Shown one piece after another: positions 1,945 to 25,846 of a stretch of DNA of 64,000 bases. The position numbers and the translations under genes are program-made. The stretch covers positions 124,001 through 188,000 of the forward strand of contig NZ_MVDE01000007.1 of NCBI RefSeq assembly GCF_002843385.1, read 5' to 3'. The notes under the pieces are model-generated. The model was not told where the DNA came from and did not search any database. It worked only from the letters and a program-made list of their open reading frames with translations. Positions within the stretch are counted from its first letter, which is position 1. The number at the start of each line of letters is the position of its first letter. The DNA comes from Labilibaculum manganireducens (GTDB lineage Bacteria; Bacteroidota; Bacteroidia; Bacteroidales; Marinifilaceae).

Positions 1945-4074
1945 TTAAGGCATTACAGCCAAATCCTCCCATACCACATTCCAGGTTCCATCCTTAGGAA
2001 ATCCGGGAGTGCCAATCGTATTGTTATCCCATCCTGCACACATCATGGAAACAGCAGTTAACAAACCACCATTACCAGGCAGATAAACCCTTAAACGATC
2101 ATCCTGATAATTATGGCCATTGATTAAATAAGTGTTGGTTCGTTTGTCCATTAATAAAGCTTCCACTGCTTTTTCAGATTCACCCAATCTGGCCGCGCAC
2201 ATTGCTGTCATTGGATAATCCCATCCCCATGTTTTGTCCCAATTCCAGTTTTGTAAAATCCAATTAAGGGTGTTTTTCATATCATCCGGTCTTGCCAATT
2301 TACATTGAGGCAAAATCCCCAAAGCACCCAATACGGCTGGATGATCGGAAGTAAAACGGATATCTTGGTAAGTATCCAGAGCATCTTCTGCTGCCAGATA
2401 CAAACCATCCTTTTCGGCTAACGGCGATAATTTATTGATTATATCATCCCATCTTTCATTTCTTTTTTCGCCTAATCGTTCGCGCCAATTTTGGGCAACT
2501 GACAAGGCATAATGCCAATAAGACAACTCGAATGGCGGATTAATAGTTTCTGCTGCCCTTAATGATTCCTGTGCAGGAATAATTCCTTTCAGAACATACC
2601 TGTCTCCCGTCTCATCATAAGTGGCAAACGACGCCATAAATTCAGCTGTTGCATTCACCAGATCCTTGTACTTGGTAAGGACTTCTTTCGAAGGATGACT
2701 GCGGTATACAAGCTCGCTCATGTAAATAAAATGAGGTTGCTGCCAAATTAAAAACGAACCTACCGAAGAAGGTGCTTCGGTGGCCGAAGGATCGGTCATT
2801 TTCATCCAGCGAACACCATCAAAGCCTTGTCGTTCGGCTATTTCTTTTGCAACAGGATAAGCTGTAGAATACCAATCCAGACTTCTCTCCAATAAATCAG
2901 TACGGTTCCATAATGCAAATTGAACTGCATGCCACCAATGCATTTCCAAATGAAATTTACCGAACCAACTGTTGTAGGTTAAACCTGTTTCCTGTGGAGG
3001 AATGGATCCGGCACATTGTATCGCCATTAAATATTGAGATAAAATTACGCGTCGTTCCAATTCGCTCGCTCGTTTATCGGTACATTTCGAAAAATCAATG
3101 GCACCACCATTTTTCCAAAATGATTGCCAATATTCCGATGATTTCGCAAGAACATTGTCTAAAGTATCTGTATTATCATCAGGTTTCTCTTTCGAATAGG
3201 CACAGGTAAAAGAAAATTGATTACTGTTTGGCGATAAAACAAAATAATGAGGAGCTTTTTCATCCATCTGCGCCTTTCCTTCCCATTTAATTTTCACAAA
3301 ATAACAGTCATTATCCAATGTTCGTTTCAACAGACAAAATCCATCACCTTGAGAAACGACCTCCGTTTTGTGTTTTTCGGGTACATCGCAATTGCTGGCA
3401 TCATCCGAATGGTTTCCTGTTGGGTAAGGAAATTTAAAATTGATTTTTAACTGAGCCTTGCCAATAAGTGCTGATGATATTTGTGCCTGCACTTCGTCTA
3501 TAGATGGATGACATGCTGTCTTCACCAAAACAGAATCAGAATCCAATTTAAATTGACTAAGCAGTAAACCATCCCACAATTTCAATTCCTGATGAATATC
3601 AGTGATATCATCAGAATTAACCGTACTCCCATCTTGATGACTTAATTCCAATCCTATATAGCCTAAATGCAAACGATGCGGATTTTTCCTAAACCAGTTG
3701 GCTGCATCATGCGCTCTTCCCGGAGTTTTACTTTGCACAGCATACAACTCATCTTTTCCTCTAAAATTGTAGGTTTTTAAAGCTTCTTCCGGCTTATAAT
3801 TATTGGGATTAAGAAAACTATGCCATCCCCATTGTGACTGAGTTCCTAAAGGAACACCTTTTTTATAGTTGGTTGGAAAAGTTTGCAATCCTGTGGCATC
3901 TGCCGTAAAAGCAAAATTTCCATTCCCAACCGATAAAGAACTTAATTCGTCAATTTTGGTTACGACCGGATTATTTCGCGTTACTAATTCGTACCTGTTT
4001 ATTTTTTCAGGCACTTTGTTTTGACAGGCGAATAAGGCCAAACAGGCTATTCCAATTAGTAAGAATTGTTTCAT
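1945..4074 (-). CDS. Lipoprotein with GH65/GH95-like (alpha/alpha)6 catalytic domain
   Basis: 709 residues from the ATG at 4074. This start is chosen because it opens a lipoprotein signal (MKQFLLIGIACLALFAC) with a lipobox Cys; the frame stays open to 4158, but that stretch is repeat sequence. An N-terminal beta-sandwich (residues about 25-290, starting near LSVGNGNFAFTADATGLQTF) is followed by a helical toroid with FHLEMHWWHAVQFALWNR (about residue 395) and KTWGWDYPMTAMCAARLG, features shared with GH65, GH95 and related retaining or inverting toroid enzymes. Exact GH family and substrate are not recognisable to me. It follows susD in the operon after a 0.8 kb gap holding repeats and a stem-loop. 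The start codon is the terminal ATGAAA of a dispersed repeat unit. Confidence 0.72.
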   Translation of the reverse strand: MKQFLLIGIACLALFACQNKVPEKINRYELVTRNNPVVTKIDELSSLSVGNGNFAFTADATGLQTFPTNYKKGVPLGTQSQWGWHSFLNPNNYKPEEALKTYNFRGKDELYAVQSKTPGRAHDAANWFRKNPHRLHLGYIGLELSHQDGSTVNSDDITDIHQELKLWDGLLLSQFKLDSDSVLVKTACHPSIDEVQAQISSALIGKAQLKINFKFPYPTGNHSDDASNCDVPEKHKTEVVSQGDGFCLLKRTLDNDCYFVKIKWEGKAQMDEKAPHYFVLSPNSNQFSFTCAYSKEKPDDNTDTLDNVLAKSSEYWQSFWKNGGAIDFSKCTDKRASELERRVILSQYLMAIQCAGSIPPQETGLTYNSWFGKFHLEMHWWHAVQFALWNRTDLLERSLDWYSTAYPVAKEIAERQGFDGVRWMKMTDPSATEAPSSVGSFLIWQQPHFIYMSELVYRSHPSKEVLTKYKDLVNATAEFMASFATYDETGDRYVLKGIIPAQESLRAAETINPPFELSYWHYALSVAQNWRERLGEKRNERWDDIINKLSPLAEKDGLYLAAEDALDTYQDIRFTSDHPAVLGALGILPQCKLARPDDMKNTLNWILQNWNWDKTWGWDYPMTAMCAARLGESEKAVEALLMDKRTNTYLINGHNYQDDRLRVYLPGNGGLLTAVSMMCAGWDNNTIGTPGFPKDGTWNVVWEDLAVMP

Positions 4075-4169
4075 ATGATTATAATTTGTTTTCATTTGCC
4101 ATATGGAACTTACCATGCTGAAATAATCATCTCCCTGTGTGTAGAAAGCTTTATACATGGACGTTTCAT
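4075..4169 (-). repeat. Dispersed ATGAAA-bounded repeat, copy A (short form, no hairpin)
   Basis: Read on the minus strand, the unit begins ATGAAACGTCCATG, continues through ACACAGGGAGATGATTAT and a CATGGTAAGTTC core, and ends in a T/A-rich stretch directly before the ATGAAA that starts the GH65-like gene. It lacks the inverted repeat TCCCGAA/TTCGGGA found in copy B. It is in frame with the gene, giving a spurious N-terminal extension. Confidence 0.9.
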
Positions 4170-4291
4170 ATGTTTATTATTTGTTTTTCAGTTGCCATAT
4201 AGCCTGTCCCGAACTTGTTTCGGGAGAACTTACCATGCCGGGAATAATCATCTCCTGTGTGTCAAAAAATGTTTTGGCATGGACGTTTCAT
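4170..4291 (-). repeat. Dispersed ATGAAA-bounded repeat, copy B (long form with hairpin)
   Basis: Tandem with copy A and in the same orientation. It contains the palindromic module CTCCCGAAACAAGTTCGGGA, which can fold as a hairpin, between the CATGGTAAGTT core and the GCTATATGGCAA tail. The unit ends at the ATGAAA that opens copy A. Confidence 0.9.
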
Positions 4292-4410
4292 AATAGGATA
4301 AATTCTATATTATTTATGGATTTAATTTTCGTCATTTACTAAAAAAACAGACTTTGATTTTGAAATAGATATGGAAACTCAAATCTAAGACATGAAGATA
4401 ATGCATCGTA

Positions 4411-4442
4411 TGAAGGATTGTACAAATCTATGGAATATTGTA
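4411..4442 (-). promoter_or_regulatory. Possible HTCS-type regulator site between susD and the GH65-like gene
   Basis: Two elements resembling the motif upstream of susC lie 5-6 bp apart: GATTGTACAAA and GGAATATTGTAC on the plus strand. The second shares GTACAATATT (minus strand) with the site at 10299-10308. The region 4292-4523 holds no credible gene apart from a 20-codon reading frame that starts at the ATGAAA after repeat copy C. Function is inferred from motif similarity only. Confidence 0.3.
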
Positions 4443-4523
4443 CGGGCTCATACTGCAGATCTAAATGGTTGATTTTACTGCATTTCTTAAATAATCAGGC
4501 TTATACTGGAAAATGATTTTCAT

Positions 4524-4635
4524 ATGATTATAACTGTATGTTTTTGCCATGTAGCCTGTCCCGAACTTGTTTCGGGAGAACTTACCATATAATCATCTCC
4601 CTGTGTGTAGAAAGCTTTATACATGGACGTTTCAT
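4524..4635 (-). repeat. Dispersed ATGAAA-bounded repeat, copy C (hairpin form)
   Basis: A single unit, same orientation as A and B, with the TCCCGAA/TTCGGGA hairpin and the ACATGGACGTTTCAT boundary (plus-strand reading). It ends at an ATGAAA that starts only a 20-codon frame (MKIIFQYKPDYLRNAVKSTI then stop), unlike copies A, D and G, which end at real genes. This suggests a lost or truncated gene at this position. Confidence 0.88.
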
Positions 4636-4781
4636 AACAGAAGAAGAAATAACACTCTTATTAGTAATTGGTATTTTAACCAATAGCACACAATCCACTC
4701 AAAACATTAATTATCAATAATTTACAAACAACCAACAACCCATTGTCAATATTGTTTTAACCAAAAACTATTTAAGACAAA

Positions 4782-4816
4782 TACCACTGCCAGGCGCTGA
4801 TTGCCCAGCAATGGTA
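4782..4816 (-). terminator. Intercistronic stem-loop downstream of susD
   Basis: On the minus strand TACCATTGCTGGG pairs with CCTGGCAGTGGTA (13 pairs, three of them G-U) around a short loop, 63 nt after the susD stop. Only a weak T-run follows (TTTGTCTT), so it may be an mRNA-stabilising or attenuating hairpin rather than a full terminator. Such placement would let susC/susD be expressed more than the downstream enzymes. That role is inferred. Confidence 0.45.
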
Positions 4817-4878
4817 ATTTTGTTATTTTCCTAAACTAATTTTATATCAGGTAATTTAAAAACAAGAACCAATTATCA

Positions 4879-6705
4879 TTAATAAAGAGGATGTTGCTGC
4901 CCTTCTAATCCTGAATTCACATCAATCATATTTTGATTTAATGGTAATAGTTCTACTTTATTTTTTTCTAATCCTCTAAATAGAGATTCAATCCATATTT
5001 CATCTGCATTTAAAGTTTTTGAATTGGATAAATCATCATTTCCAAACATGTCAAGTACGGTATATCCCTGGGTTTTCAAATCTGCTATTTCAGTATCAGA
5101 TAATTCATTTTTATAACTCAAATAATTTACGGCAACAAGTGGATCTTCAAATTCTGTTGCTTTAATAGAATTATATGCTCTATACATGTCAGCATCATGA
5201 TAAGATCCTGTATGGTTAGCTAATTTTATTAAATTTTGCTTCGTTTCTGTTAATGTTTCAAAAAGAATACCCCAGCGAATCAGATCCGTTCTTCTTAAAC
5301 TTTCAAATCCTAATTCCAGTTTTCGCTCATTTATAATCGCTTTTTTAAATTCATTGTAAGTAGAGGGAATATCACCAATTTTAGACTCATCATTGTTAAA
5401 TGCTCTCATACGTACAGCCTTTAAGGCTTTTTCAGCTTCAGTTCCAGGTGAACTATGCAACTCATTTTCTGCTTCAGCATACATTAACAAAACATCTGCA
5501 TAACGTAACATAGGCCAATTAATATCACGCTTATTCACCGCAACACCAATCTCAGCTTTCCAGTCTACCCTAAATTTGCCTATGGTACATCCCGCATATG
5601 TACTTAGTTTACGCTCATCATCTGAATTAATATCATAATTGCAAATCGTTACATCTCTTCTGGTATCCCCATCGTTAAAATCGAACCAGTAGGTGGGAAT
5701 AGCATGCATAGCTGGTTTTACCTTTGAATACATGCTATTAGGGTGAGAATAAATACCATTCGTATAACCTATAGAATATCCATTCACGTTAGATCCATAT
5801 TGACCTATTTCAAGCAAAGATTCAGAGTTATACCGGCCATTAACTAAGTCCCGAAAAACATCTGCATAGCTATTCTCCAATTCATTTTCCCCTTTTTGAA
5901 TAACTTCATAACAAGCTTCGGAAGCTATCTCATAAAGCTCATTAATTCTTTCTTTATCAGCCCTTTGAGCCAAAGTAACCGATCCTGAAGAATACGATTC
6001 CAGATCCCATCTTAATGAATATCCTGCCCCATATAAAGCGGCTCTGGCCAGTATGCCATAAGCCGCATTTTTTGAAAATCGTTCAGGGGTTGGATATACA
6101 CCCTGGCTTTTCCAGGGAAGTAATTCTGCTGCTTTTTGAAGATCCGAAATAACTCCGTCCATAATAGTATCGCGGCTTACTCTTGATGAGGTAAACGTAT
6201 CCATATCTTCAACAGGTTTTGTTGGATATGGCACATCACCAAAAAATCTAACAATATTCATAAAATTCATACCTCGTATGGCATATACTTCGCCCAACAA
6301 ATAATCAATATTTTTTTGATCGGAAACAGAGCTCCCCTCTCGCATCGCTGTAAGCTTCTTTATACAAACATTAGCATATTCAATACCTGCATATAAGGCT
6401 GTATATGTTGATGAAGGAATGTTTGAGGTGGTGTAAACGTAGTTTCCAATTTGATTTTTTGAATTGGTATCACCTTCGCTTGATATGCACTCGTCGGTAC
6501 CCATACCCAATTGGTAATACAATTCACGGTTAAAAGTATTTGGATAACAGGCTAAAACCGCCATTTCAGCTCTGCTGACAGATTCAAAAACTGAACTACT
6601 ATCGAATTTCGATTCCGAAGGCATATCTAACCAGTCTTCGCAGGAACTAAGTGTAAAACTCAGCAACAAAAGAATCATTATATAACTTATATTTATTTTT
6701 TTCAT
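4879..6705 (-). CDS. susD-like: SusD-like glycan-binding lipoprotein (first PUL)
   Basis: 608 residues from the ATG at 6705, chosen because it opens a lipoprotein signal (ISYIMILLLLSFTLSSC followed by EDWLDMPSES). The mature N-terminus, the TPR-like helices with LLGEVYAIRGMNFMNIVRFFGDVP, and the C-terminal RADLI-type segment (FESLRRTDLIRWGILFETL) are typical of the SusD/RagB family. It sits on the cell surface over the SusC channel and captures oligosaccharides. It lies 236 bp downstream of susC, with two repeat units in the gap. The start codon is the terminal ATGAAA of repeat copy D, and the upstream repeat is in frame, which makes the naive reading frame 40 codons longer. Confidence 0.93.
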   Translation of the reverse strand: MKKINISYIMILLLLSFTLSSCEDWLDMPSESKFDSSSVFESVSRAEMAVLACYPNTFNRELYYQLGMGTDECISSEGDTNSKNQIGNYVYTTSNIPSSTYTALYAGIEYANVCIKKLTAMREGSSVSDQKNIDYLLGEVYAIRGMNFMNIVRFFGDVPYPTKPVEDMDTFTSSRVSRDTIMDGVISDLQKAAELLPWKSQGVYPTPERFSKNAAYGILARAALYGAGYSLRWDLESYSSGSVTLAQRADKERINELYEIASEACYEVIQKGENELENSYADVFRDLVNGRYNSESLLEIGQYGSNVNGYSIGYTNGIYSHPNSMYSKVKPAMHAIPTYWFDFNDGDTRRDVTICNYDINSDDERKLSTYAGCTIGKFRVDWKAEIGVAVNKRDINWPMLRYADVLLMYAEAENELHSSPGTEAEKALKAVRMRAFNNDESKIGDIPSTYNEFKKAIINERKLELGFESLRRTDLIRWGILFETLTETKQNLIKLANHTGSYHDADMYRAYNSIKATEFEDPLVAVNYLSYKNELSDTEIADLKTQGYTVLDMFGNDDLSNSKTLNADEIWIESLFRGLEKNKVELLPLNQNMIDVNSGLEGQQHPLY

Positions 6706-6825
6706 CTGTTTATAATTTGTTTTGATTTGCCATATAGCCTGTCCCAAACTTGTTTCGGGAGAACTTACCATGCTGAAATAATCATCTCCTTGTGTGTCAA
6801 AATTGCTTTGGCATGGACGTTTCAT
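6706..6825 (-). repeat. Dispersed ATGAAA-bounded repeat, copy D (hairpin form)
   Basis: Located immediately before the susD start. It contains CTCCCGAAACAAGTTTGGGA, one base off the perfect hairpin, plus the ACACAAGGAGATGATTATTTCAGC core. Open in frame into susD. Confidence 0.92.
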
Positions 6826-6937
6826 ATGTTTATAATTTTAAGTTTTTGTCATATAGCCTGTCCCGAACTTGTTTCGGGAGAACTTACCATATAATCATCT
6901 CCCTGTGTGTAGAAAGCTTTATACATGGACCTTTCAT
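6826..6937 (-). repeat. Dispersed ATGAAA-bounded repeat, copy E (hairpin form)
   Basis: Tandem with copy D. It begins four bases after the susC stop codon (TAA at 6944-6942), so the repeat pair occupies almost the whole susC-susD gap. The left boundary reads ATGAAAGGTCC, one change from the consensus. Confidence 0.9.
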
Positions 6938-6941
6938 ATGA

Positions 6942-9900
6942 TTAGAAAGTAAGATTTAAACCCAAAACACAACTTTTTGCTCTTGGGTAAGCAGAATTAT
7001 CAATACCTCTTGTTAACAAATTCGAAGTAGCAGATACTTCAGGATCGTATCCTGAGTATTTCGTGAACGTATGAACATTATTTAAAGTGCAATAAAACCT
7101 AAGGCTATTCACTTTCATTCGTTTTAGGATCTTGGTGGGTAAGGTATATCCCAATGTAATGTTGTTTATCCGCAAAAAGGATCCATCTTCAATATAATAA
7201 TCCAATGCATCGGTGATGGCTATTTTATTACTTGAGTTTAAACTCCACATAGCATCGCTATTGTGCTGCTGAGGATTAAGTCCTGCCAATTGCTGCAAAT
7301 TTGTTGTTTCTTTTCCTGTTGTAGGATCCACCAATACAAAGCGGTCTGCCATAACAGATAATGAATTTTGATTTGGCAGATAAGGACCGATGAATCGCTG
7401 CGAATTCATATTAAACACATCATTTCCGTAGGAGAAACTCATAAATGCTGAAAAATCAAACCCTTTGTATTTAAAGGTATTTACTATACCTCCAGTAAAA
7501 AGAGGCTCAGCATTACCAATTACTTTTCTATCATCTGTAGACCAAACAGGGTTTCCATCATCATCCGTATTGCCTTCTGTAGTTTTATATTTTACATCTC
7601 CAGGTTTTATTGAACTTCTTATTTTTCCCTTCAAACTAGGTACACCATCATTTAAAGAATAAGATCCATCTGAATTTTGAGAAAAGTCATCTGTAGTATA
7701 TACACCATCATACTGATAACCATAGAACTGACCTAAGGGTTTACCAACTTCTATTAGAAAATCAATACGAGAGTCATAATTTTGCTTAAAATAATCATCC
7801 TTATCATCACCGTATATTGCCAATACTTTTGATTTATTAAATGAAATATTGAAATCGGTAGTCCATTTAAAATTATCATTCTTAATATTAGTCGTATTTA
7901 GCACAAACTCATATCCTCTGTTTCGAATTGATCCAATATTTTGATATTGATAACTATAACCTGTTGATGTTGGTATTTTATTTTTTATCAGAAGATCATT
8001 TGACTTGTTATTATAGAACTCTGCAGTTAAATTTACTCTGCTATTAAAAAAAGAAACATCCAGACCAATATTTGTAGATTTTGTGGTTTCCCATTTTAAA
8101 TTTGGATTCCCTACTGTATTTCCGGGCTTTAAACTTACAACCTGCTTGTTGTCAACGGCATAAAAACCAGACTGATAATCGGTAGCATACATATTATTGC
8201 TAATATTGCAATTACCGGTAGTTCCATAACCGATGCGCAGTTTTAAATTGTTAAGCACATCCATATTACTCATAAAAGACTCCTCTGAAACCCGCCATGC
8301 TGCGGATACAGATGGGAAATATCCCCATTGTTTCCCTTTTGAAAATTTAGAAGAACCATCTCCTCGAATTGTTGCGGTTACTAAATACCTTTCATCAAAA
8401 TTGTAGTTTAACCGGCTAAAAGCTGACACAAGTCCATTTGAACTTTTCCCGGATGAATATGAATATACCTGACCAGCCATGCTGACATCATTTAATCCAA
8501 AGTTATTTTCAGGAAATTCATAGTACGTGTTTTTTAAATCCATCGACTCGGAATAGTATGTTTCCTGTCCCAGTAACACATTGAATTTGTGAGCACCTGT
8601 TTCTCCTTTCCATGTTAGAGTGTTGGTAACCTGCCAACTATATTTTTCGCTGTTGTCCCTATTCCCATAAGGTCCTTTATTGTTTTGGGCTGTTTTTGTA
8701 CGTCCGTCATCCCAAGATTCGGATCTTACCTGCTGCCACAAATAACTACCTGCTGTTCTGAATTTAATATTCTTATTAATGTCAATATCCAATGAGGCAT
8801 TGGTGGTATACAAGCGCGTATACTTTGTCTTGGTAACCGCATCATTTGTAATTAAAGGATTGTAAATGTCGTATTGAGAATCAATATCCTGCATTTCATC
8901 ACTAATATCTGTATTAATTAATTGATCATCGGTATACAATACACCTCCAGTTACAGGCTGCAAAATTGACATTTTCAATAAACCTCCTAAAGAACCTCCT
9001 CCTTCTAATTTTGTTCCTAAAAAGCTTGAACTAAATGTAAGGTTAATTCCTTTTCGTAACTCGTGGTTGATTTTAGCCCTTATTCCATTTCGGGTATAAC
9101 CTGATTTATCAACCAAACCATCCTGACCCGTATAATTGTAACTCAACATATATTGGGTTTTTTCGCCACTACCGGTAATGTTCAGATTGTGATTTGTCAT
9201 TTTTGCAGTACCACCAAAAACAACATCCTGCCAATTGATACCAGGGACAGAACCATATTGACTTTGAATGCGGTCGTAAGCACCGGTATAAAAATTACTA
9301 TTGGAGATATCGCCTCCATAAACATTAGCCCAGTTATTAATTTGTCCGTTTAATGTTTGAAATTCATATTGATACTCAACATATTCTTGTGTATTCAACA
9401 GATTTAACTCGGAACCCAGCTTTTCAAAACTAACGTAAGCATTGTAATTAACTTCTGTTTTTCCTTTTTTACCAGATTTGGTGGTAATAATAACTACTCC
9501 ATTCGAACCTCTTGCTCCATATATCGCTGTTGCAGAAGCATCCTTCATTACATCAATCGATTCAATATCGTTAATATCGATATTTTTTAAACCATCATCC
9601 ATTTGGAAACCATCCACAATATATAATGGAGAAGAGCCTTGAGTAATAGACGTACCACCTCGTACAACAATATTTATATCTGCTCCGGGAGCACCACTTT
9701 GAGTAATCACACTCACCCCAGCTATTTTTCCTGTAATGGCTTGCGCTGCAGTAGTTACCGGAACCTGAACAAGCTCCTTCCCTCCCACAGAACTTACAGC
9801 GCCGGTTAAATCTTTTTTTCTAGCCGTTCCGTAACCAATAACAACGACTTCATCCAATTCTGAAATCTCTTCTTTTAATTGAATATTAATGGTGGTGGCA

Positions 9901-10181
9901 TCATTAACTACAATCGTTTGTGTAATTAAGCCAACAAATGAAAAAGTAATTTTTGAATTTTTACCAGCAACCGTTATAGAATAATTACCATCAATATCAG
10001 AAAGAGTTCCGTTTGACGTCCCCTCCTCAATAATAGTCACGCCCGGTATGGTAGTAACTCCGTCTGTAACGTTTCCGGAAACAGTAATTTGAGAGATGGC
10101 ATTAAAACTAAATCCATACAAGATGATAATTAAAACCAACCACCGTTTCACGATACGTGTTTTGTTTGTGTGCTTTTTCAT
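6942..10181 (-). CDS. susC-like: SusC-like TonB-dependent outer-membrane transporter (first PUL)
   Basis: 1079 residues. After a signal peptide (to about residue 30) comes a carboxypeptidase-D-like regulatory domain (VSGNVTDGVTTIPGVTIIEE), a TonB box region (ELDEVVVIGYGTARKKDLTG), the plug (VQVPVTTAAQAITGKIAGV, GGTSITQGSSPLYIVDGFQM, ATAIYGARGSNGVVIITTKS) and a 22-stranded barrel ending SCVLGLNLTF with a terminal Phe. No STN domain is present, so anti-sigma signalling is not expected. With the SusD at 4879-6705 it forms the importer of this PUL. First gene of the leftward operon, with a recognisable promoter at 10245-10275. Confidence 0.96.
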   Translation of the reverse strand: MKKHTNKTRIVKRWLVLIIILYGFSFNAISQITVSGNVTDGVTTIPGVTIIEEGTSNGTLSDIDGNYSITVAGKNSKITFSFVGLITQTIVVNDATTINIQLKEEISELDEVVVIGYGTARKKDLTGAVSSVGGKELVQVPVTTAAQAITGKIAGVSVITQSGAPGADINIVVRGGTSITQGSSPLYIVDGFQMDDGLKNIDINDIESIDVMKDASATAIYGARGSNGVVIITTKSGKKGKTEVNYNAYVSFEKLGSELNLLNTQEYVEYQYEFQTLNGQINNWANVYGGDISNSNFYTGAYDRIQSQYGSVPGINWQDVVFGGTAKMTNHNLNITGSGEKTQYMLSYNYTGQDGLVDKSGYTRNGIRAKINHELRKGINLTFSSSFLGTKLEGGGSLGGLLKMSILQPVTGGVLYTDDQLINTDISDEMQDIDSQYDIYNPLITNDAVTKTKYTRLYTTNASLDIDINKNIKFRTAGSYLWQQVRSESWDDGRTKTAQNNKGPYGNRDNSEKYSWQVTNTLTWKGETGAHKFNVLLGQETYYSESMDLKNTYYEFPENNFGLNDVSMAGQVYSYSSGKSSNGLVSAFSRLNYNFDERYLVTATIRGDGSSKFSKGKQWGYFPSVSAAWRVSEESFMSNMDVLNNLKLRIGYGTTGNCNISNNMYATDYQSGFYAVDNKQVVSLKPGNTVGNPNLKWETTKSTNIGLDVSFFNSRVNLTAEFYNNKSNDLLIKNKIPTSTGYSYQYQNIGSIRNRGYEFVLNTTNIKNDNFKWTTDFNISFNKSKVLAIYGDDKDDYFKQNYDSRIDFLIEVGKPLGQFYGYQYDGVYTTDDFSQNSDGSYSLNDGVPSLKGKIRSSIKPGDVKYKTTEGNTDDDGNPVWSTDDRKVIGNAEPLFTGGIVNTFKYKGFDFSAFMSFSYGNDVFNMNSQRFIGPYLPNQNSLSVMADRFVLVDPTTGKETTNLQQLAGLNPQQHNSDAMWSLNSSNKIAITDALDYYIEDGSFLRINNITLGYTLPTKILKRMKVNSLRFYCTLNNVHTFTKYSGYDPEVSATSNLLTRGIDNSAYPRAKSCVLGLNLTF

Positions 10182-10244
10182 AGAAATACTATTTTATAAA
10201 CTTATTTTTAAGTGGATAAAAAATTATCTGTTATTTATATCCGC

Positions 10245-10275
10245 TAAAACTACGGTCAGGAGTATTCGTATCAAA
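10245..10275 (-). promoter_or_regulatory. Bacteroidota-type promoter of the susC operon
   Basis: On the minus strand TTTG (10275-10272) is followed after exactly 19 bases by TAGTTTTA (10252-10245), close to the TTTG-N19-TAnnTTTG consensus. The expected transcript start near 10238 leaves a 5' leader of about 55 nt. The candidate activator motifs lie directly upstream. Confidence 0.6.
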
Positions 10276-10276
10276 T

Positions 10277-10383
10277 ACACTATTGTCCAAATCACTACAA
10301 TATTGTACATCTCAACCCGTACACAAAAGCACAATAGTCTACATACATGCAACTTACAAAACAATACATTCACTATTGTACAT
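10277..10383. promoter_or_regulatory. Cluster of ACTATTGT-type motifs, probable HTCS operator
   Basis: Within about 107 bp there are CACTATTGTCCA (from 10278), ACAATATTGTACA (from 10297), an inverted ACAATAGTCT (10331-10340) and CACTATTGTACA (from 10371). The first abuts the -33 element of the susC promoter. The intergenic region 10182-10754 lies between susC and the HTCS gene, so this is the natural place for autogenous and operon control. The rest of the interval shows no gene or convincing HTCS promoter. Confidence 0.5.
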
Positions 10384-10754
10384 GAATGATTAAGAACAAA
10401 CAAAACATAAAAAGCAGGGTGGATAGGATGAATCTACAGAAGTATCTCCATCAAAATAATGATAAGTATGTGTATTTTTTGCATCAACAGATTAGCTTAA
10501 ACCCAAAACATGACTATTTTTACAAGCCTATATAAATATCAATCAGCGAATACTCATTCAATCCAATTATTTTTTTTATAATCGTTTTATAGAACCTATT
10601 TGTAAACGCAATATTTACATTCCGTTTGTTACGATACAAACCTTTCTCTTGAACTTTATAAACTGGAATCCAACTCGTATCAATAAAAACGAATAAGAGA
10701 TCATACGTTTACCAGAAGCGTATAAATTGAAGATTTAGCCAAAAATGAAAACAA

Positions 10755-13700
10755 ATGAACATTAAGTATTTTTTTCTTAGTTGCTTTTTATTTATCTATC
10801 TAAATGTAAGTGCTGAAAAATCTTTCAGAATACAAAACTTAACCACTAAAGATGGTTTATCACAAAACACCATTAGTTGCATTCTGCAGGATAAACAAGG
10901 ATTTTTATGGTTTGGATCATTAAATGGTTTAAATAAGTACGATGGAGATGAGTTTACGGCTCTTCAGCCGAGCTATGGACAAACCACCACATTATCCGAC
11001 AGCAGAATAAAAAACATTCGCGAAGACAAATTTGGGTATTTATGGATCCAAACCAATATAGATCATATAAATTGCTATAATCCTCAATCAGAAAGCTTTA
11101 TTAGCCTTAATTCTGCAAATAATCAATATGCAAATATTTACTTTGCTCAATCAGGAGATGTTTGGCTTTGGGGAAATAAAAACGATTGCCTCAAGCTTAC
11201 TCACACCCCAAAAGGACTGGAATCAGAGTCTTTTGGAAATAATTCATTAGGCTCTGGTACGGTTAATTTTATTTCAGAAGTGAAATCCGGAGAAATATGG
11301 ATTGGGACACATAACAAACTATTCTGCTTTAAAGACAAGCAATTGAAGCTACTCATTGAAAATTCCAATTTTCATTCCATCATTGAAAATGGTGCTTTTG
11401 TTTATGTTTTTACCGATAACAACAAAATGTACAAAATAGATAAAGAATCGCATAAAATTACCAATGAGGTAAAGCTTCACTTTCCTATTCACAGTTTGCT
11501 GCACAGCACAGCACTTCTTTCCTTAAACAACATACTTATCACCACCCATGAAGAAAGCTATGTTTTGAATACGCAAACGTTACAAATTCACTTGGCAAAT
11601 TCACTTTTTAAAGGTCAATCGCTTAAAAATGCCTATACTCAAATGGATAACAAAAATCATATCTGGGTTTATAACAAAAGCGGTGTTATTTGGCAATACA
11701 ATTCTGAGCAACATAGCTTTAAGTCCTTTGAATTAATACCACCATCAATTATTTCCAATATTGACATGGAGCGTTATTCAATTTATCACGATTCAAAAGA
11801 TATGATTTGGATATCAACCTATGGAAACGGTTTGTTCGTTATTCAACAAAAAAACAATGAAATATTTCATTTAAAACATCATAAAAATGAGTTTGATGGA
11901 CTTCGGACAAATTTTTTACTATCCATAACTGAAGACCGCAGTGGAAATATCTGGTTAGGAACAGAATATGCCGGGATATCAAAAATAAATTTAATTGAAA
12001 ACAAATACCAATCATTTTATCCCGGGCACAAATCATCAAGTGATGAGGACAATATAGTGAGGCTGATTTATGAAGATGAAAAAGAGAATGTTTGGCTGGG
12101 CACCAAAAGCGGACAATTATATATCTACGACAAATTTTTTTCGTTGATAGCCAAACATCAGATTAAAGGCGGAATGCCTTATATCCTTGCAGCAGATACC
12201 AAAGGAAATAAATGGATCGGAACAAAAGGAAATGGGTTATTAATATTTGATAATAACTGCTTTACAAGCTATAAGACTTACAAGAAAGAGCTTATTAATT
12301 TAGATCTGCAAGCAGATAAAATATATGCTGTCTGCAAAGACTCTAAAGGAAGAATGTGGCTGGGAACATTTGGATTTGGCCTTCTTTTAGCCAAAGAGCA
12401 CAATGGCACATTGGAACTAATCGATTTTCCGGAGTTAAGAAAGAAACAAACCAGAATCCGAACCATTATTCAGGATAAAAACGGTCAAATGTGGCTGGGT
12501 GGAAATAACGGCTTACTTACCTTTGATCCTGATTCCATACTACAAGATAAATCAAAATTTAGTCATTATCAGTTTAACAACAGAGATGATGCTTCACTGA
12601 GTAATAATGAAGTAAAAACAATATTTGAAGACAGCAAAGGCACCTTATGGATCGGCACATCAGGAGGTGGCTTAAATAAAATCATCAAAAGAGAAAATAA
12701 GCATTTGCATTTTGAGCATTTTACAACAAAGCAAGGACTCGTAAATGATATCATACAAGGGATTCAGGAAGATGAAAACCAAAACCTGTGGATTAGTACC
12801 GAAAGTGGTATTTCATTATTCTTTCCTAAAGAAAATCATTTCGAAAATTATTCTTTGTCATCCAAATGGGAAGGAGACCTGTTTTGTGAATCGGCCATTT
12901 GCAAAAACAAAAACGGAGCAATCTATTTAGGCAGTTATGATGGTTTTTATACCATTCAGCCCGACAGTATTAAAAATCATTCAAATTCAGAACCAATTAT
13001 TCTTACCGAACTTTTTATTAACGGAACTAAAATGTTACCTGAAGGTAAAATATCTCCCTTATCCCAATCCATATCTTCAACCAAAGAAATCAATCTTAAG
13101 CACAATCAACATTCTTTTACCATTCAATTTGCGATATTAAATTATCAGAATACGAACAGATACACCTATATATTAGATGGTTTTGAAACACAATGGAACC
13201 CATCAACACAACACAACCAGGCAACCTACCGAAATATACCACCTGGTACATATACATTTAGGGTAAAAGGAAGTAACCACATGGGGACGTGGGGTGAAAA
13301 TGAAACAAAACTTTTAATTACCATCGAACAACCCATCTGGCGTTCAACTAAAGCCATCATACTCTATTTTATTTTGGTGATTGTTATTGGTGCAATTGCT
13401 CTCAAAATAAACAGAAAAATATATCATTTGAATGCCGCCATTCAATTCGAACATCAATTAAGCGAATATAAAATTCGGTTCATTACAAATATTTCGCATG
13501 AATTTCGTACGCCTTTAACCATTATTCGAAGCACAATTGAAAATTTAATGGCACAAAAAGATATGGCGGAAAATATCAAAAAACACTTGCTTTTCCTCGA
13601 TAAAAGCTCAAGAAGACTATTAAGACTGACCAACCAATTTCTTGAATACAGGAAGATACAGAACGAGCAGGCTAAACTTGAATGCGAACCAACCGAAGTT

Positions 13701-15023
13701 GTCGCTTTTTTTGAAGATATTTTTTCCACCTTTGAAGAACTGGCCGAAAGAAAAATATTGTCTTTTGATTTTGCATCCAATCTTCCCTCATTTGTTATGC
13801 AATTGGATAAAGAGAAAATGGAAAAAGTAGCCTACAACTTATTATCCAATGCATTTAAATTTGTTAACAGAAAAGGAAAAATAAGCTTCCTTCTCAATAT
13901 TAATCAAGAAATAAATACCCTTTGCATTAGTGTTTCGGATAACGGCAAAGGAGTACCAAAAAAAGAACAAGGATTGTTGTTTACACGATTTAAACAGATT
14001 TCACCATCCGAACCTGGCATTGGTATCGGTTTAAATTTATCCTACGAAATAATAAAACTACATGATGGCAGCATTCAATATACCGAAACTCCCGGTGGAG
14101 GAGCAACTTTTATTGCCTCTATACCTATTCTTACTAATACCGAAACAAAAGTAATCCGTCATCAGCAACAGGTTTTGCTGCCAACCAATCCTGAAATAAT
14201 AGAATTGGAAAGCAATCCCTTAACTACTTTGTCAGAAAAAGAATTAGAGCGGTATAAGAATTTTAAAGTATTAGTGATTGAAGATGATCCTGATGTTTCC
14301 GATTATTTAAATGACTTTTTGCAACAATATTTTAAAGTAATTGTTGCTGTAAACGGTCTTGATGGAATAAATAAATGTAGTCTGGTGAATCCTCAATTAA
14401 TTATTTGCGACGCGATGATGCCTAAGATGGATGGTTTTCAAGTTATTAAACGAATAAAATCCGATTTTCAAACCTGTCATATTCCCATTGTGATGTTAAC
14501 AGCTTATGTTAGTTCTCCTTACCAACTTAAGGGAATTACAGCTGGAGCTGATGCCTATATCACGAAACCTTTTAGTTCTCAGTATTTGATCATGCGTATG
14601 GTGAAATTATTAGAACAAAGACATACCTTGCAACAAAAATACGCCATGGAACCTGGTGTAAGCTCCTTACCCAATTTTACTGTTAATAAGGACAATGAAT
14701 TTATAAAAGAACTGAATTTGATCATAAAACAAAACATTTCTAATACTGATTTTTCTATTAATGAATTTCACGAGAAAATGTCGATGGGGAGAACCATATT
14801 TTACAAAAAGGTAAAAGGTCTAACCGGTTTTACACCCAATGATTACATCAGAGTTATTCGAATGAAAGAAGCTGCAAAATTATTAACTACCACTAAGCTT
14901 AATGTGTCGGAGGTAGCCTATAAAGTAGGAAGTAGTAATCCTTTTTATTTTAGTAAATGTTTTAAACAACAATTTGGGGTATCTCCTTCTGTTTATATTA
15001 AAAATGGAAGTGCTAAAAGTTAG
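10755..15023 (+). CDS. Hybrid two-component system sensor/regulator (HTCS 1)
   Basis: 1422 residues in one chain. A signal peptide (to about residue 20) is followed by a periplasmic two-propeller region built of repeated DxxGxxWxGT-type blades (residues about 30-760), a Y_Y_Y domain (about 780-855) and a membrane segment (about 865-885). Then come HisKA with His about 915 in ISHEFRTPL, HATPase (NLLSNAFKF, DNGKGVP, GIGIGLNLS), a receiver with Asp about 1219 in LIICDAMMPKMDG, and an AraC-type DNA-binding domain (SEVAYKVGSSNPFYFSKCF). HTCS proteins bind a specific oligosaccharide in the periplasm and activate their own PUL. Divergent from the susC operon, it is the likely user of the motifs at 10277-10383. 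Confidence 0.96.
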   Translation: MNIKYFFLSCFLFIYLNVSAEKSFRIQNLTTKDGLSQNTISCILQDKQGFLWFGSLNGLNKYDGDEFTALQPSYGQTTTLSDSRIKNIREDKFGYLWIQTNIDHINCYNPQSESFISLNSANNQYANIYFAQSGDVWLWGNKNDCLKLTHTPKGLESESFGNNSLGSGTVNFISEVKSGEIWIGTHNKLFCFKDKQLKLLIENSNFHSIIENGAFVYVFTDNNKMYKIDKESHKITNEVKLHFPIHSLLHSTALLSLNNILITTHEESYVLNTQTLQIHLANSLFKGQSLKNAYTQMDNKNHIWVYNKSGVIWQYNSEQHSFKSFELIPPSIISNIDMERYSIYHDSKDMIWISTYGNGLFVIQQKNNEIFHLKHHKNEFDGLRTNFLLSITEDRSGNIWLGTEYAGISKINLIENKYQSFYPGHKSSSDEDNIVRLIYEDEKENVWLGTKSGQLYIYDKFFSLIAKHQIKGGMPYILAADTKGNKWIGTKGNGLLIFDNNCFTSYKTYKKELINLDLQADKIYAVCKDSKGRMWLGTFGFGLLLAKEHNGTLELIDFPELRKKQTRIRTIIQDKNGQMWLGGNNGLLTFDPDSILQDKSKFSHYQFNNRDDASLSNNEVKTIFEDSKGTLWIGTSGGGLNKIIKRENKHLHFEHFTTKQGLVNDIIQGIQEDENQNLWISTESGISLFFPKENHFENYSLSSKWEGDLFCESAICKNKNGAIYLGSYDGFYTIQPDSIKNHSNSEPIILTELFINGTKMLPEGKISPLSQSISSTKEINLKHNQHSFTIQFAILNYQNTNRYTYILDGFETQWNPSTQHNQATYRNIPPGTYTFRVKGSNHMGTWGENETKLLITIEQPIWRSTKAIILYFILVIVIGAIALKINRKIYHLNAAIQFEHQLSEYKIRFITNISHEFRTPLTIIRSTIENLMAQKDMAENIKKHLLFLDKSSRRLLRLTNQFLEYRKIQNEQAKLECEPTEVVAFFEDIFSTFEELAERKILSFDFASNLPSFVMQLDKEKMEKVAYNLLSNAFKFVNRKGKISFLLNINQEINTLCISVSDNGKGVPKKEQGLLFTRFKQISPSEPGIGIGLNLSYEIIKLHDGSIQYTETPGGGATFIASIPILTNTETKVIRHQQQVLLPTNPEIIELESNPLTTLSEKELERYKNFKVLVIEDDPDVSDYLNDFLQQYFKVIVAVNGLDGINKCSLVNPQLIICDAMMPKMDGFQVIKRIKSDFQTCHIPIVMLTAYVSSPYQLKGITAGADAYITKPFSSQYLIMRMVKLLEQRHTLQQKYAMEPGVSSLPNFTVNKDNEFIKELNLIIKQNISNTDFSINEFHEKMSMGRTIFYKKVKGLTGFTPNDYIRVIRMKEAAKLLTTTKLNVSEVAYKVGSSNPFYFSKCFKQQFGVSPSVYIKNGSAKS

Positions 15024-15234
15024 TTTTAGAATAATAACTGAGCATAAACACACTTAGTATTGAGCCAGCAAAATATGCTTGATAATGTTATTTTGATGCT
15101 CTTTTTATATTAGTAGTTCCAAGGCAGCACCAAAAATAATTAGTAATTTTAGTAGCTCATAATTTAGGATCTTTTATTAAAAAATTGATTCAATTTTATT
15201 AAAATGTATTTTTTTAATCACAACATAATTTCAT

Positions 15235-15355
15235 ATGAAACGTCCATGCCAAATCGATTTTGACACACAGGGAGATGATTATTTCAGCATGGTAAGTTCT
15301 CCCGAAACAAGTTCGGGACAGGCTATATGGCAAATCAAAAACAAATTATAATCAT
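15235..15355 (+). repeat. Dispersed ATGAAA-bounded repeat, copy F (hairpin form)
   Basis: Plus-strand copy with ACACAGGGAGATGATTATTT, the hairpin CTCCCGAAACAAGTTCGGGA and the tail GCTATATGGCAAATC. Translation from its own ATG runs into a stop at the end of the unit, so the peptide reading frame is not conserved between copies. It lies 212 bp after the HTCS gene; the intervening sequence holds no recognisable gene. Confidence 0.92.
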
Positions 15356-15443
15356 ATGAAACGTCCATGTATAAAGCTTTCTACACACAGGGAGATGATT
15401 ATATGGTAAGTTCCATATGACAAAAACTTAAAATTATAAACAT
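15356..15443 (+). repeat. Dispersed ATGAAA-bounded repeat, copy G (short form)
   Basis: Tandem with copy F, without the hairpin module, and ending at the ATGAAA start codon of the next gene. The variable segment matches copies A, C and E (TATAAAGCTTTCTACACAC) rather than copy F. Confidence 0.92.
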
Positions 15444-16313
15444 ATGAAATCAACAATCTTATCCATTGTATTATTTGCAATGATCAGCTGTTCTGTAATA
15501 GGACAAAACCTTACCGATGCCAGCTTATTTCTTAGAAGCGACTCTGTTTACACCAATATGATTCAGGAAGAATCCGGTGACTTATACAAAACAATAGGAC
15601 ATCACGGACCTGCTGTTGAAAATGAATGGTTGGCACTTCGCTTGTATTTTAATAATAAAGCTACTTCGATTGATGTTTACAACAAACAAAAAAAAGGTCT
15701 CGAATTAAAGAATGCCAAATGGTATCCTTCCGAAAAAGAACAGAAAAAAGGTCTGGGTGCTGATTATTATAAAGTAGGATCTACAGTTGGACTTGGAGGT
15801 GTTCGCCTTTGGGATGGAGAAAATGTAGTGCTTTTAGCTCCTGTTTCGAATCGTATCGCCACCGTTAAAAAGGAAGCCACTTATTCTCAAATGGAAATGT
15901 TATCAAAAGATGTTCCATATAAAGGAAAAAAGATAGATGTATTGGTTCGTGTAACCGCTTACACCGGAATTCGGGAAATGAGAGTGGAAGCTTTTGCTTT
16001 AACAGATGAGGATGTTCAGTTTGTTACCGGAATTAACTACCACAAAGGACAAAAAGTTGAAAAAGCCGATAATTATATGATTGCATGGGGTTATCATCCT
16101 GAAGATGTAGCTGCAGAGAAAATTCAAGTTGGAGCTGCAATAATGATTAATCCAGATGATTATCTGGACAGAAAAGATGATGGCAAACAACAACTTTACA
16201 TCTCAAAACCAACAAAATATTTAAGCTCTTGGGTAACCTCCACTATTGAAAAAGATAAAAAGATGGGAACCTTTGAAAAATTTAAAGCATACGTTGTTAA
16301 AACTGCAAAATAA
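15444..16313 (+). CDS. Secreted DUF4861-like protein
   Basis: 289 residues with a signal peptide (MKSTILSIVLFAMISCSVIG). The body is beta-rich, with HHGPAVENEWLALRLYFNN near residue 54, GLGADYYKVGSTVGLGGVRL near 104 and an acidic middle region. This pattern matches, from memory, DUF4861, a domain that often accompanies GH105 enzymes in pectin or glucuronan PULs; the reaction is not established here. The start codon is the end of repeat copy G. It is followed by a strong terminator, so this is a single-gene unit or the end of an HTCS transcript. Confidence 0.6.
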   Translation: MKSTILSIVLFAMISCSVIGQNLTDASLFLRSDSVYTNMIQEESGDLYKTIGHHGPAVENEWLALRLYFNNKATSIDVYNKQKKGLELKNAKWYPSEKEQKKGLGADYYKVGSTVGLGGVRLWDGENVVLLAPVSNRIATVKKEATYSQMEMLSKDVPYKGKKIDVLVRVTAYTGIREMRVEAFALTDEDVQFVTGINYHKGQKVEKADNYMIAWGYHPEDVAAEKIQVGAAIMINPDDYLDRKDDGKQQLYISKPTKYLSSWVTSTIEKDKKMGTFEKFKAYVVKTAK

Positions 16314-16322
16314 ATTCTACAA

Positions 16323-16358
16323 GTAAGGGGCCATAAAGCCCCTTACCTTTTTCCTTTT
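16323..16358 (+). terminator. Rho-independent terminator after the DUF4861-like gene
   Basis: A 9-bp stem GTAAGGGGC/GCCCCTTAC with a 6-base loop is followed by CTTTTTCCTTTT. It lies between two convergent genes. Confidence 0.8.
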
Positions 16359-16373
16359 AAAACAAAAAGATTG

Positions 16374-18623: not shown

Positions 18624-18793
18624 TCAATTATTTAATTGTATTTGAAAGTTTTACAAAAAATGCTCTGGTTGCAGATCATGCCAGTTTTTTTCTATTTAAA
18701 ACGAACAAACCACCTCTTCAAACATTCTTTGTGAAAGTATATTTATCGAAATTAATTAAGATCTTTTGTAGTAAGGCATCCCCACAGGAATTA

Positions 18794-21058: not shown

Positions 21059-21130
21059 GTTGTATCAAATTATATTGCAACTGCTTACCAAAGGGCTGCA
21101 ATGGTGTTTACGATTATCGAAATATCATTT

Positions 21131-22564
21131 TTAGTGAGCTTCGAATGGTTTTTCTACCAATTTTCCATCTACTCTTACGCGATCAACATCGCAATTTTCT
21201 ACATCATCCAACACAAATAAGGGACGTGCATCCTTTTGCTCAAAATAAAATCTGATATTCTCGAAAAATATATTTTTAGCATGCCTCACATAAAAACCTG
21301 AGGCTGGAATTGTTCCAAACATCCATGGTTCAGGATATGTTTTCTCGCTTTCAGGAGGTACAATTTTTCCATCTTCTGCAGTATAACCTCCTTTAAAATG
21401 AATATTGATATTTGAAAAAGAAACCTCTTCAACCTGGTGACCAGGCACACCACTTATGATGTTTGAAAATTGCGAATCAGCATTAAACACATTCACATTA
21501 CTGATTTGAACTCTTCGTAGTTTTCCTACGGGAGTTCCTTTCGGACTACGCTGACGTGCTCCCAAGCGAATGAAAAACGGCGAATTGCCCACATTGCGCA
21601 TGGTAATATTCGAAACCACCACATCTTCGAGCCAACCTCCGTCAACAGCTTCAATGGCCAAACCTCTGCTTCGTTCGAAAATACAATTGGTGATGGCAAT
21701 ATTTTTAAAGCCTCCACTTGACTCAGTTCCTAATTTAATACGTCCGGTATTTGACCCGTGATCAGGTGCTACAGCCTCGTCGGTTTCCCACTTCGCCGTC
21801 AATACAGATCCTTTGTCGTAACCAGAAACAAAACAACCATTTATGGTTACGTTCTCTGTATCTTTAAAATATCCCAAAGCATAACTCGATTTTAGAACAA
21901 TGGCATCGTCCCATGGACAATTTACACTGCAATCGGAAATACGTACGTTTTTACAGCAATCAATATCAAAACCATCGCGGTTCGTATCTACTTTAAGATT
22001 GAGTACGTGCAAATTATCTACTCCTGTTGCTAAAATGGCAAAATGACCGCAGTTTAGCATCGCTGCATCCTTCACGGTAATGTTATGACACTCCTTAAAT
22101 GACAGCGCTTTGTTGCCCACTCCCGGTAATCGGCTTTCTTCTCTTGTTAAGCCTTGTCCATTAATTAATCCATTACCGCAGATCGTTATATCGTGCTCAT
22201 TAACAGCCCAAAATAAGGAATTTTCCCAGTGGCTGTGTCCAAAGTCCTGAAAAGGATTATCCGGATTTGGTTCTGCAATATCATAACCTTCCTTTTCAGA
22301 AGGGAAAGCCGCTAAAACTGTAGCTCCAGATTCAATTTGAATAGTAATATTACTTTTTAAACGAATGGAATAGCAGGCATATGTTCCGGCAGGAATATAA
22401 ATTGTTCCTCCTCCATTTTGAACCGCCTCTTCAATAGCGCTGTTAATAGCGGGAGAATCAATGGTAACACCATCTCCCTTAGCTCCAAAATCTTTAATAT
22501 TATAAGTTTCGGCCTTTAAAGAGATACCGTATAGTAATGCTATAAACAGGAATAATTGTCGCAT
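21131..22564 (-). CDS. Glycoside hydrolase family 28 (polygalacturonase-like)
   Basis: 477 residues with a signal peptide ending near LKAETYNI. It is a right-handed beta-helix with the opening NIKDFGAKGDGVTIDSPAIN. The catalytic-region motifs are NRDGFDID and PWDDAIVLKSS, and GTESSGG follows further on. GH28 enzymes hydrolyse alpha-linked galacturonic acid; in RG-I loci they usually act as exo-galacturonosidases or rhamnogalacturonan hydrolases. It starts 12 bp after the DUF4450-like gene and precedes PL11. Confidence 0.92.
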   Translation of the reverse strand: MRQLFLFIALLYGISLKAETYNIKDFGAKGDGVTIDSPAINSAIEEAVQNGGGTIYIPAGTYACYSIRLKSNITIQIESGATVLAAFPSEKEGYDIAEPNPDNPFQDFGHSHWENSLFWAVNEHDITICGNGLINGQGLTREESRLPGVGNKALSFKECHNITVKDAAMLNCGHFAILATGVDNLHVLNLKVDTNRDGFDIDCCKNVRISDCSVNCPWDDAIVLKSSYALGYFKDTENVTINGCFVSGYDKGSVLTAKWETDEAVAPDHGSNTGRIKLGTESSGGFKNIAITNCIFERSRGLAIEAVDGGWLEDVVVSNITMRNVGNSPFFIRLGARQRSPKGTPVGKLRRVQISNVNVFNADSQFSNIISGVPGHQVEEVSFSNINIHFKGGYTAEDGKIVPPESEKTYPEPWMFGTIPASGFYVRHAKNIFFENIRFYFEQKDARPLFVLDDVENCDVDRVRVDGKLVEKPFEAH

Positions 22565-22576
22565 ATTTTTTTGTTT

Positions 22577-23320: not shown

Positions 23321-23327
23321 AAATTGT

Positions 23328-24539: not shown

Positions 24540-24550
24540 TAAAAAAAATA

Positions 24551-25705: not shown

Positions 25706-25846
25706 TTCATATAGTGTTTTAGAAATTTTTATCACCAAATGTATCACATAGCATATCTGAAAAAAAGGAAAATTATACACAAACCTAGAATATCATCCAC
25801 AACAACAAAGCATCAAAATAAATACATGTTTTAGTACTATTTTCCA

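Follow-up and report, generated by a model that had tools for sequence, protein, structure and literature searches.

A 64,000-nucleotide stretch of the Labilibaculum manganireducens genome (contig NZ_MVDE01000007.1, positions 124,001 to 188,000 of the forward strand; called the window in what follows) contains seven short repeats bounded by ATGAAA. Each of them is a copy of one small, structured element of mobile DNA, of which the genome has more than 100 copies. The element inserts exactly 3' of the sequence ATGAA on one strand and terminates in its own ..CNNATGAA, and insertion at the ATGAA of a gene provides that gene with an element-borne start codon preceded by an A/T-rich stretch. We regard as moderately probable that this is a non-autonomous structured element with guide-directed, Y1-type single-strand mobility, for which start codons are kept as a safe harbour.

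Empty sites, copy number and the units of the window

The element is mobile, because sister genomes carry the same genes without the unit, and the mobile leader proposed in the initial annotation of the window is borne out in this respect. The 5' ends of four unit-bearing genes (fabD, a LOG-family gene, rpiB and a cupin gene) were compared across eight congeners. In the case of fabD, the site is filled in the source genome and empty in all eight congeners, which read ATGAAAGCA after gaagaagaat, or a close variant. The LOG-family gene, which starts ATGAAT, carries two tandem units in the source genome and is empty in the six congeners with full flanks (aaaat-ATGAATATT or similar); in a seventh it is apparently empty, but a contig end cuts the flank. 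The rpiB site is filled in the source genome and in congeners G006 and G007 (decayed copy), and empty in G002, G003 and G004. For the cupin gene, two units are found in the source genome, one each in G006, G007 and G008, and none in G002, while in G003 and G004 the start differs and the site cannot be placed.

In these four genes the insertion point lies between ATGAA and the following host base; for instance, the host T after the ATGAA of the LOG-family gene is retained behind the units in the filled allele. The unit is preceded by the old ATGAA, which in fabD has since changed to TTGAA, and on its right comes its own ATGAA; the junction of unit and host is almost always (A)TGAA. The unit ends are not inverted repeats, with on average 1.9 and at most 5 of the 12 terminal bases identical (246 units); this lack of terminal inverted repeats and the near-constant junction do not fit a DDE-type miniature inverted-repeat transposable element. 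The flanks of the compared insertions are ordinary host sequence on both sides, which lends no support to the earlier suggestion that the repeats serve as homology for shuffling enzyme genes.

The unit is about 88-125 bp long. BLAST of the genome gave at least 61 matches (40 of 142 first-look candidates scored), the best besides the query itself with 98% identity over 127 nt (E 3.2e-57), and a covariance model built from 40 hairpin-less copies, applied to 150 of 4976 candidates, found at least 135 matches (E<=0.001). By BLAST at E<=0.001, 19 of 59 genomes (the source genome and relatives) are positive, including all nine members of the genus. The model finds the unit at E<=1e-4 in 82 of 344 sampled genomes of the order, self included, and in 58 of 195 genera. 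At E<=1e-6 it does so in 8 of 395 sampled genomes of the phylum, self included, two of the others lying outside the host class. A 20-nt core pattern occurs in 59 stretches of named genomes, nearly all from Labilibaculum or the Marinifilaceae; one stretch is in Salegentibacter echinorum, where the model match is weak (E 0.006). A 103-nt unit query had no match in plasmid and phage collections, and full-text searches of the literature found no description of the unit. Against Rfam at gathering score, the window gives only a tRNA, and six unit loci searched at E<=5 give three matches, none of them over the unit; a known RNA family is rejected on these results.

All seven window units open with ATGAAA(C/G)GTCCATG and lie at exactly the positions given by the initial annotation; genome-wide, the family is larger than that annotation states. 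The opening 14-mer is found at 15235 and 15356 on the plus strand and at 4169, 4291, 4635, 6825 and 6937 on the minus strand, with no further copy in the 64 kb, and the model search of the genome returns the same seven units in the window and none besides. Each unit abuts a further ATGAAA at its right end, and the units form four arrays: 4075-4291 (two units), 4524-4635 (one), 6706-6937 (two) and 15235-15443 (two). An internal hairpin, termed hairpin II (TCCCGAA..TTCGGGA), is present in five units and absent from two (4075-4169 and 15356-15443), as had been described. The features are as follows.

4075-4169, minus strand: unit without hairpin II; its right-end ATG (4074-4072) is the start of a 709-aa open reading frame (ORF)
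4170-4291, minus strand: unit with hairpin II; tandem, its right end being the left end of unit 4075-4169
4524-4635, minus strand: unit with hairpin II; its right end opens a 20-codon ORF only, no gene
6706-6825, minus strand: unit with hairpin II; its right-end ATG (6705-6703) is the susD start
6826-6937, minus strand: unit with hairpin II, ATGAAAG variant; tandem with unit 6706-6825
15235-15355, plus strand: unit with hairpin II; tandem with unit 15356-15443
15356-15443, plus strand: unit without hairpin II; its right-end ATG (15444-15446) opens the DUF4861 gene
15300-15318, plus strand: hairpin II of unit 15235, TCCCGAAACAAGTTCGGGA; optional module, identified by sequence
15414-15419, plus strand: internal guide CATATG of unit 15356 (CATNNG in other copies), pairing with the right end; from fold and covariation
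15441-15446, plus strand: right end CATATG(AA) of unit 15356, the partner of the guide; contains the DUF4861 start codon
1945-4074, minus strand: 709-aa ORF opening in a unit right end; no family match
4879-6705, minus strand: susD-like gene, 608 aa, opening in a unit right end; domain matches
15444-16313, plus strand: DUF4861 gene, 289 aa, opening in a unit right end; domain match

Thus the right ends of three arrays are starts of genes or long ORFs, as had been claimed. The susD-like product matches SusD_RagB and SusD-like_3; the 'GH65-like' label attached to the 709-aa ORF finds no counterpart, as this ORF has no match in Pfam, NCBIfam or PDB sequences. In the case of unit 6706-6825, the unit's own 40-codon frame continues into susD (648-aa ORF, 4879-6825), and SusD would gain 40 residues if the old start, at the left end of this unit, were used. 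The region 10755-25780 encodes a hybrid two-component regulator together with GDSL esterases, rhamnogalacturonan lyase 11, GH28 and GH88, and has the appearance of a locus for the use of pectin (RG-I).

Gene starts behind the unit

Adjacency to start codons was scored by asking whether the ATG at the right end of an array opens at least 60 codons. Set aside were right ends internal to tandem arrays (20 in the own genome, 18 in the genus and 3 in the phylum set), one duplicate of the genus set and three of the order set, two short open frames of the order set, and six own-genome copies in A4 and A5 that were already in the own-genome sets; right ends without TGAA were scored as misses. The genus set comprises loci L097-L136 only, and a match had to reach 20 bits and span the profile to be used. 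By this measure, 34 of 44 right ends in the own genome, 37 of 44 in the genus, 54 of 69 in the order and 21 of 26 in the phylum sample open such an ORF, as do 50 of 60 in a second own-genome set of loci not used before (2 of 62 were tandem and dropped, and 8 misses and 2 ends without TGAA were kept). Pooled, this amounts to 196 of 243 array right ends, in agreement with a leader that supplies the translation start. Among the 14 order misses, at least five (L202, L223, L227, L229, L237) are followed by a further unit whose tandem position had been overlooked, and misses reclassified by eye (L039, L107, L114 and L126, and the leader peptides at L036 and L111) stay out of the counts.

Other ATGAA sites at the same loci pass the same test in 22.6% (own genome), 20.1% (genus), 24.5% (order) and 19.3% (phylum) of cases. 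Under a stricter null, the share of non-coding sites that are starts, the values are 27-40 of 93-106 for TATGAA and 55-79 of 156-180 for ATGAAA (29-44%), against which the own-genome share gives P 1.3e-7 (38% null) and P 7e-6 (44% null). Taken at face value, the ATGAA motif and the loss of intragenic insertions explain part of the preference for starts, not all of it. A T precedes the target ATG in 85% of 87 left flanks, some of which are possibly old units, versus 28% of 75 unit-free ATGAA starts.

The unit-bearing genes include fabD, rpiB, lpxB, murI and dnaN, all of which pass their NCBIfam cut-offs, as well as response regulators; argG is just under its cut-off and an arsC-like target well under. 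In the case of metG (L085), which passes, the gene is preceded only by a right-end-like remnant. The targets are general genes and polysaccharide utilisation loci (PULs) are not singled out, so that the link to PUL or surface-protein genes drawn from the window alone does not hold.

Copies away from starts include three that are antisense to both neighbours (L032, L038, L056); some copies are in sense orientation, upstream of genes. At L459, diverged units (1354-1446 and 4067-4159, minus strand) lie antisense inside two decayed tnpA-like genes, whose frames were read by eye. From these antisense and intragenic copies it follows that the element acts on DNA and that a start codon is not required. 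A majority of copies in random orientation and away from starts was looked for and not found.

Across 187 unique units, the frame that begins at the left ATG is 17 codons long in the median, and the left and right ATGs stand in the three relative frames in 70, 61 and 56 of them, with 11 of the 187 reading through into the gene. With this spread over three frames, a conserved leader peptide, of which there is no sign, is rejected, and the view that selection is not on a peptide is upheld. Separately, at L036 (5969-6091) and L111 (2414-2627, minus strand) a conserved 26-codon ORF rich in Phe (MKTVFFNNWFFIFFFF../MKTVFFKSWFFIFFFF..) has a unit at its start and may encode an attenuation leader peptide. 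At L039 (5988-6034, minus strand) a decayed second unit is in frame and forms the N-terminal part of an 82-codon ORF, a case in which the element may add coding sequence.

Stems, guide and covariation

The structure of the unit was derived from single-sequence folds and from counts of base pairs in alignments that were made with the model and are biased in its favour; RNAalifold on alignment A2 returned no pairs, probably because variants in hairpin II and length are mixed there. From left to right, the unit consists of a left stem (P1), an inner hairpin (P1a), the conserved sequence ACACA..GATGATTAT, the guide GTTC-CATNNG, an A-rich stretch and the right end CN'N'ATGAA. The TTC of the guide pairs with the GAA of the left junction, and CATNNG pairs with CN'N'ATG of the right end, a 6-bp pairing that closes the A-rich loop in the single-strand fold. 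P1 covaries, with variants such as CATCCA/TGGATG, CGAGCC/GGCGAG (tandem GA) and GCAC/GTGC, and is unpaired in some rows. P1a is variable by eye and has moderate support: 56 of 246 units form a stem of 6 or more there, versus 16 after shuffling.

Pair cells in which both bases have changed number 54 versus 15.2 in shuffled alignments (69 distinct rows), and 32 versus 12.4 (37 rows). A check made outside the model gives the same picture: in 202 of 229 copies, versus 84.8 expected by shuffling, the base that follows CAT is complementary to the one that precedes the right-end ATG, and A/T (103), C/G (66) and G/C (33) pairs are all common. This count excludes copies whose left end is not TGAA or TGTA or whose flank is shorter than 12 nt, and 6 of 235 copies had no parsable guide. 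The left stem P1 and the pairing of the guide to both junctions are thus supported by covariation. In one of the L459 copies, CAGAAGAA replaces CAGATGAA at the right end and the guide is the matching CTTCTG, although the start codon is lost; the second has the same right end and the guide CCTCTG, with one mismatch. The two are probably the outcome of one ancestral event, but pairing without an ATG suggests that the guide serves mobility rather than translation.

At the rpiB and cupin sites, one allele carries hairpin II while another lacks it, and the hairpin is therefore a separate, optional module. It (TCCCGAA..TTCGGGACAGGC) is also seen outside units, and units from a different family of the class carry a similar hairpin at this internal position; the loci concerned, besides window 15300-15318, are L079, L125, L371 and L385. 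Hairpin II is perhaps a second repeat, resembling repetitive extragenic palindromes (REPs), that is nested in the unit.

Mode of mobility and known systems

Insertion on one strand 3' of a fixed sequence, the absence of inverted repeats, structured ends, a guide and the formation of arrays are together suggestive of Y1 single-strand transposition. Under this interpretation, the guide would bring both junctions together on single-stranded DNA, as IS200/IS605 and REP guides do, and a Y1 (HUH) transposase acting in trans would cut and join. Where a copy inserts at the boundary ATGAA of an older one, a head-to-tail array results. Most insertions inside genes would be lost, and start codons would dominate mainly because the element rebuilds what it strikes, making such insertions nearly harmless. 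The element may accordingly owe its spread to this repair of its targets, a safe-harbour strategy comparable to the one used by elements restoring the 3' end of a tRNA gene.

Genes with a Y1_Tnp domain are found in nine of nine genus genomes and in 20 of 20 unit-rich genomes; the source genome encodes five Y1 proteins. PF07282 (TnpB-type) has no match in the nine genus genomes and PF02371 none in 15 of 26 unit-bearing genomes, the source genome included (11 of 26 are positive); given this absence, neither TnpB- nor IS110-type enzymes can be a common mobiliser. A Y1 or RAYT (REP-associated tyrosine transposase) gene in cis is likewise rejected, since no Y1 locus among 62 and a further 20 is framed by complete units. 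Weak partial unit matches at Y1 loci are seen at L281 (E 0.017), L141 (E 0.025), L277 and L460. As separate observations, the Y1 gene at L141 (MKPGSYTQ..) opens in a remnant-like unit right end at 1457-1515 (TTCATATGG..GTCATATGAAA), a possible remnant given E 0.025 on one strand and 0.39 on the other. In the window, a Y1 (IS200-like) transposase gene (62004-62459) lies just behind two Cas6-like genes (Cas_Cas6_C) and two ORFs without family, in a small, odd cluster that also spans 58920-59711 and 60690-61364.

Recognised systems resemble the unit in part. HEARO (HNH endonuclease-associated RNA and ORF) or IscB-omega RNA elements are inserted after ATGA or GTGA, and share with the unit a structured RNA-like end directly behind ATGA; the unit, however, has no Rfam match, and the genus genomes lack PF07282 (iscB was not searched for). 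Some integrative elements restore the tRNA gene they enter, an element end replacing the displaced gene piece, whereas the unit is 88-125 bp long, has no integrase gene and sits at a gene start rather than at a tRNA 3' end. Palindrome-associated transposable elements (PATEs) are non-autonomous derivatives of IS200/IS605 elements. With the IS200/IS605 elements themselves the unit shares insertion 3' of a fixed short sequence at the left end, the absence of terminal inverted repeats, a fixed orientation and an internal guide complementary to an end sequence; guide sequences have been described as interacting both with the target next to the left end and with the terminal bases on the right (PMC6006769). 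The unit differs in that it has no tnpA and does not clearly show, at each end, a compact hairpin preceded by a tetranucleotide guide, in that its target ATGAA equals its own right end, in using one guide for both junctions, and in landing at start codons.

The likeness to REP/RAYT systems lies in the many small structured copies per genome, single or clustered, in Bacteroidota, and in mobilisation in trans, as proposed for the unit. The same source ascribes REPs with 'atypical secondary structures' to RAYT subclass 2.6 of Bacteroidetes and places REPs largely between genes (PMC6006769), whereas the unit sits at gene starts. In addition, the REP foot signature GT[AG]G occurs anywhere in only 32 of 246 unique units. 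A subclass-2.6-like TnpA with a YIHNNP motif in the source genome (L068, C15:121341) is flanked, by eye, by CGAGCTTGCAGCTCG-type hairpins and not by the unit, and no units flanking a cognate tnpA_REP were found at this locus and 20 loci with weak Y1 matches, not every subclass-2.6 gene having been fetched. By analogy, the element would work like an IS200/IS605 or REP element, and we do not file it as a member of either group.

Several points weigh against single-strand mobility in a safe harbour. Presence of Y1 genes in all unit-rich genomes is weak evidence because such genes are common, and none of the 82 Y1 loci (62 + 20) is bounded by complete units, nor was an autonomous copy found. Among the 62, a clear unit (E<=0.01) is present only in L278 and L140, about 1 kb away and not at the gene edges; among the 20 further loci, which have weak Y1 matches, only L459 has clear units, inside the decayed tnpA-like genes. 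The pairing geometry is also non-canonical for IS200/IS605, with one guide for both junctions and a long A-rich right-end loop. The base before the target ATG fits the guide only for A-guides (51 of 61 are T, own genome); in this test, which omits 53 tandem-like left flanks, non-A guides show no significant match (own genome P 0.057, all P 0.39), and a general match of guide to target at this base is rejected. About a fifth of the array right ends (47 of 243) have no following 60-codon ORF, and the expectation that copies always abut starts has to be given up, some being antisense to both neighbours. The P values for start adjacency do not come from independent events, since insertions shared by descent, at orthologous sites of several species, are multiply counted. 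Finally, a fixed 5-bp target duplication would equally leave an ATGAA on either side of the unit, and this reading, together with the rows of shared descent, lowers confidence in the mechanism proposed.

A cis-acting regulatory RNA leader (a riboswitch, attenuator or translation switch), in which the guide masks the start codon in the mRNA, would account for the covarying structure, for the position of the start codon within the 3' arm of the guide pairing, and for the predominance of units in sense orientation directly 5' of ORFs. We nevertheless judge it quite unlikely, because the genes behind units have no common function, the unit is absent at the same gene in sister species, hairpin II comes and goes at one orthologous site, copies occur antisense to both neighbours or inside a decayed gene, and one copy retains the pairing with its ATG lost. 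The antisense copies, including those inside genes, tell equally against mobility at the RNA level, by reverse-splicing or by RNA-to-DNA copying with a reverse transcriptase. No ribozyme family is matched in Rfam, and group I and II introns are much larger than the unit. This alternative is very unlikely in our estimation, even though sense orientation at most sites, an RNA-like covarying structure with an intron-like GAA:TTC pairing across the left junction, and precise junctions that restore ATGAA if the unit is removed would all be expected of it.

Bridge-RNA or seekRNA elements of the IS110/IS1111 type, served by a DEDD transposase in trans, also offer an RNA-sized structured unit, a guide complementary to the element's own end and a core common to both junctions. 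The missing PF02371 matches are a strong argument against them, and leave this explanation highly improbable. A different question is whether start codons are actively sought, through open single-stranded DNA or the translation machinery, rather than enriched by selection alone. The own-genome excess (34 of 44) over non-coding TATGAA and ATGAAA sites points in this direction, but the loss of harmful intergenic insertions would yield the same pattern, and the preference for T before ATG is not shared by unit-free ATGAA starts; active seeking seems unlikely.

Insertion specificity and end sequence together would spare the genes that are hit, replacing start codon and leader. A filled gene should start from the unit's ATG behind an A/T-rich stretch, and units at essential-type genes suggest that expression of filled genes continues. 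In a unit-rich genome the native 5' leader of many genes is displaced, with consequences for start-codon annotation, 5'-UTR (untranslated region) analysis and expression work in Bacteroidota, and the covariation of guide and right end yields a concrete, testable prediction for single-strand or RNA-guided transposition. A broader idea, which we hold as possible yet doubtful, is a phylum-wide family of nucleic-acid-guided elements whose 'anti-start' CAT guide homes to start codons and rebuilds them. If true, this would be a distinct class of mobile elements with the gene starts of Bacteroidota as its safe harbour, and the 5' ends of many genes, essential-type ones included, would have been rewritten by it.

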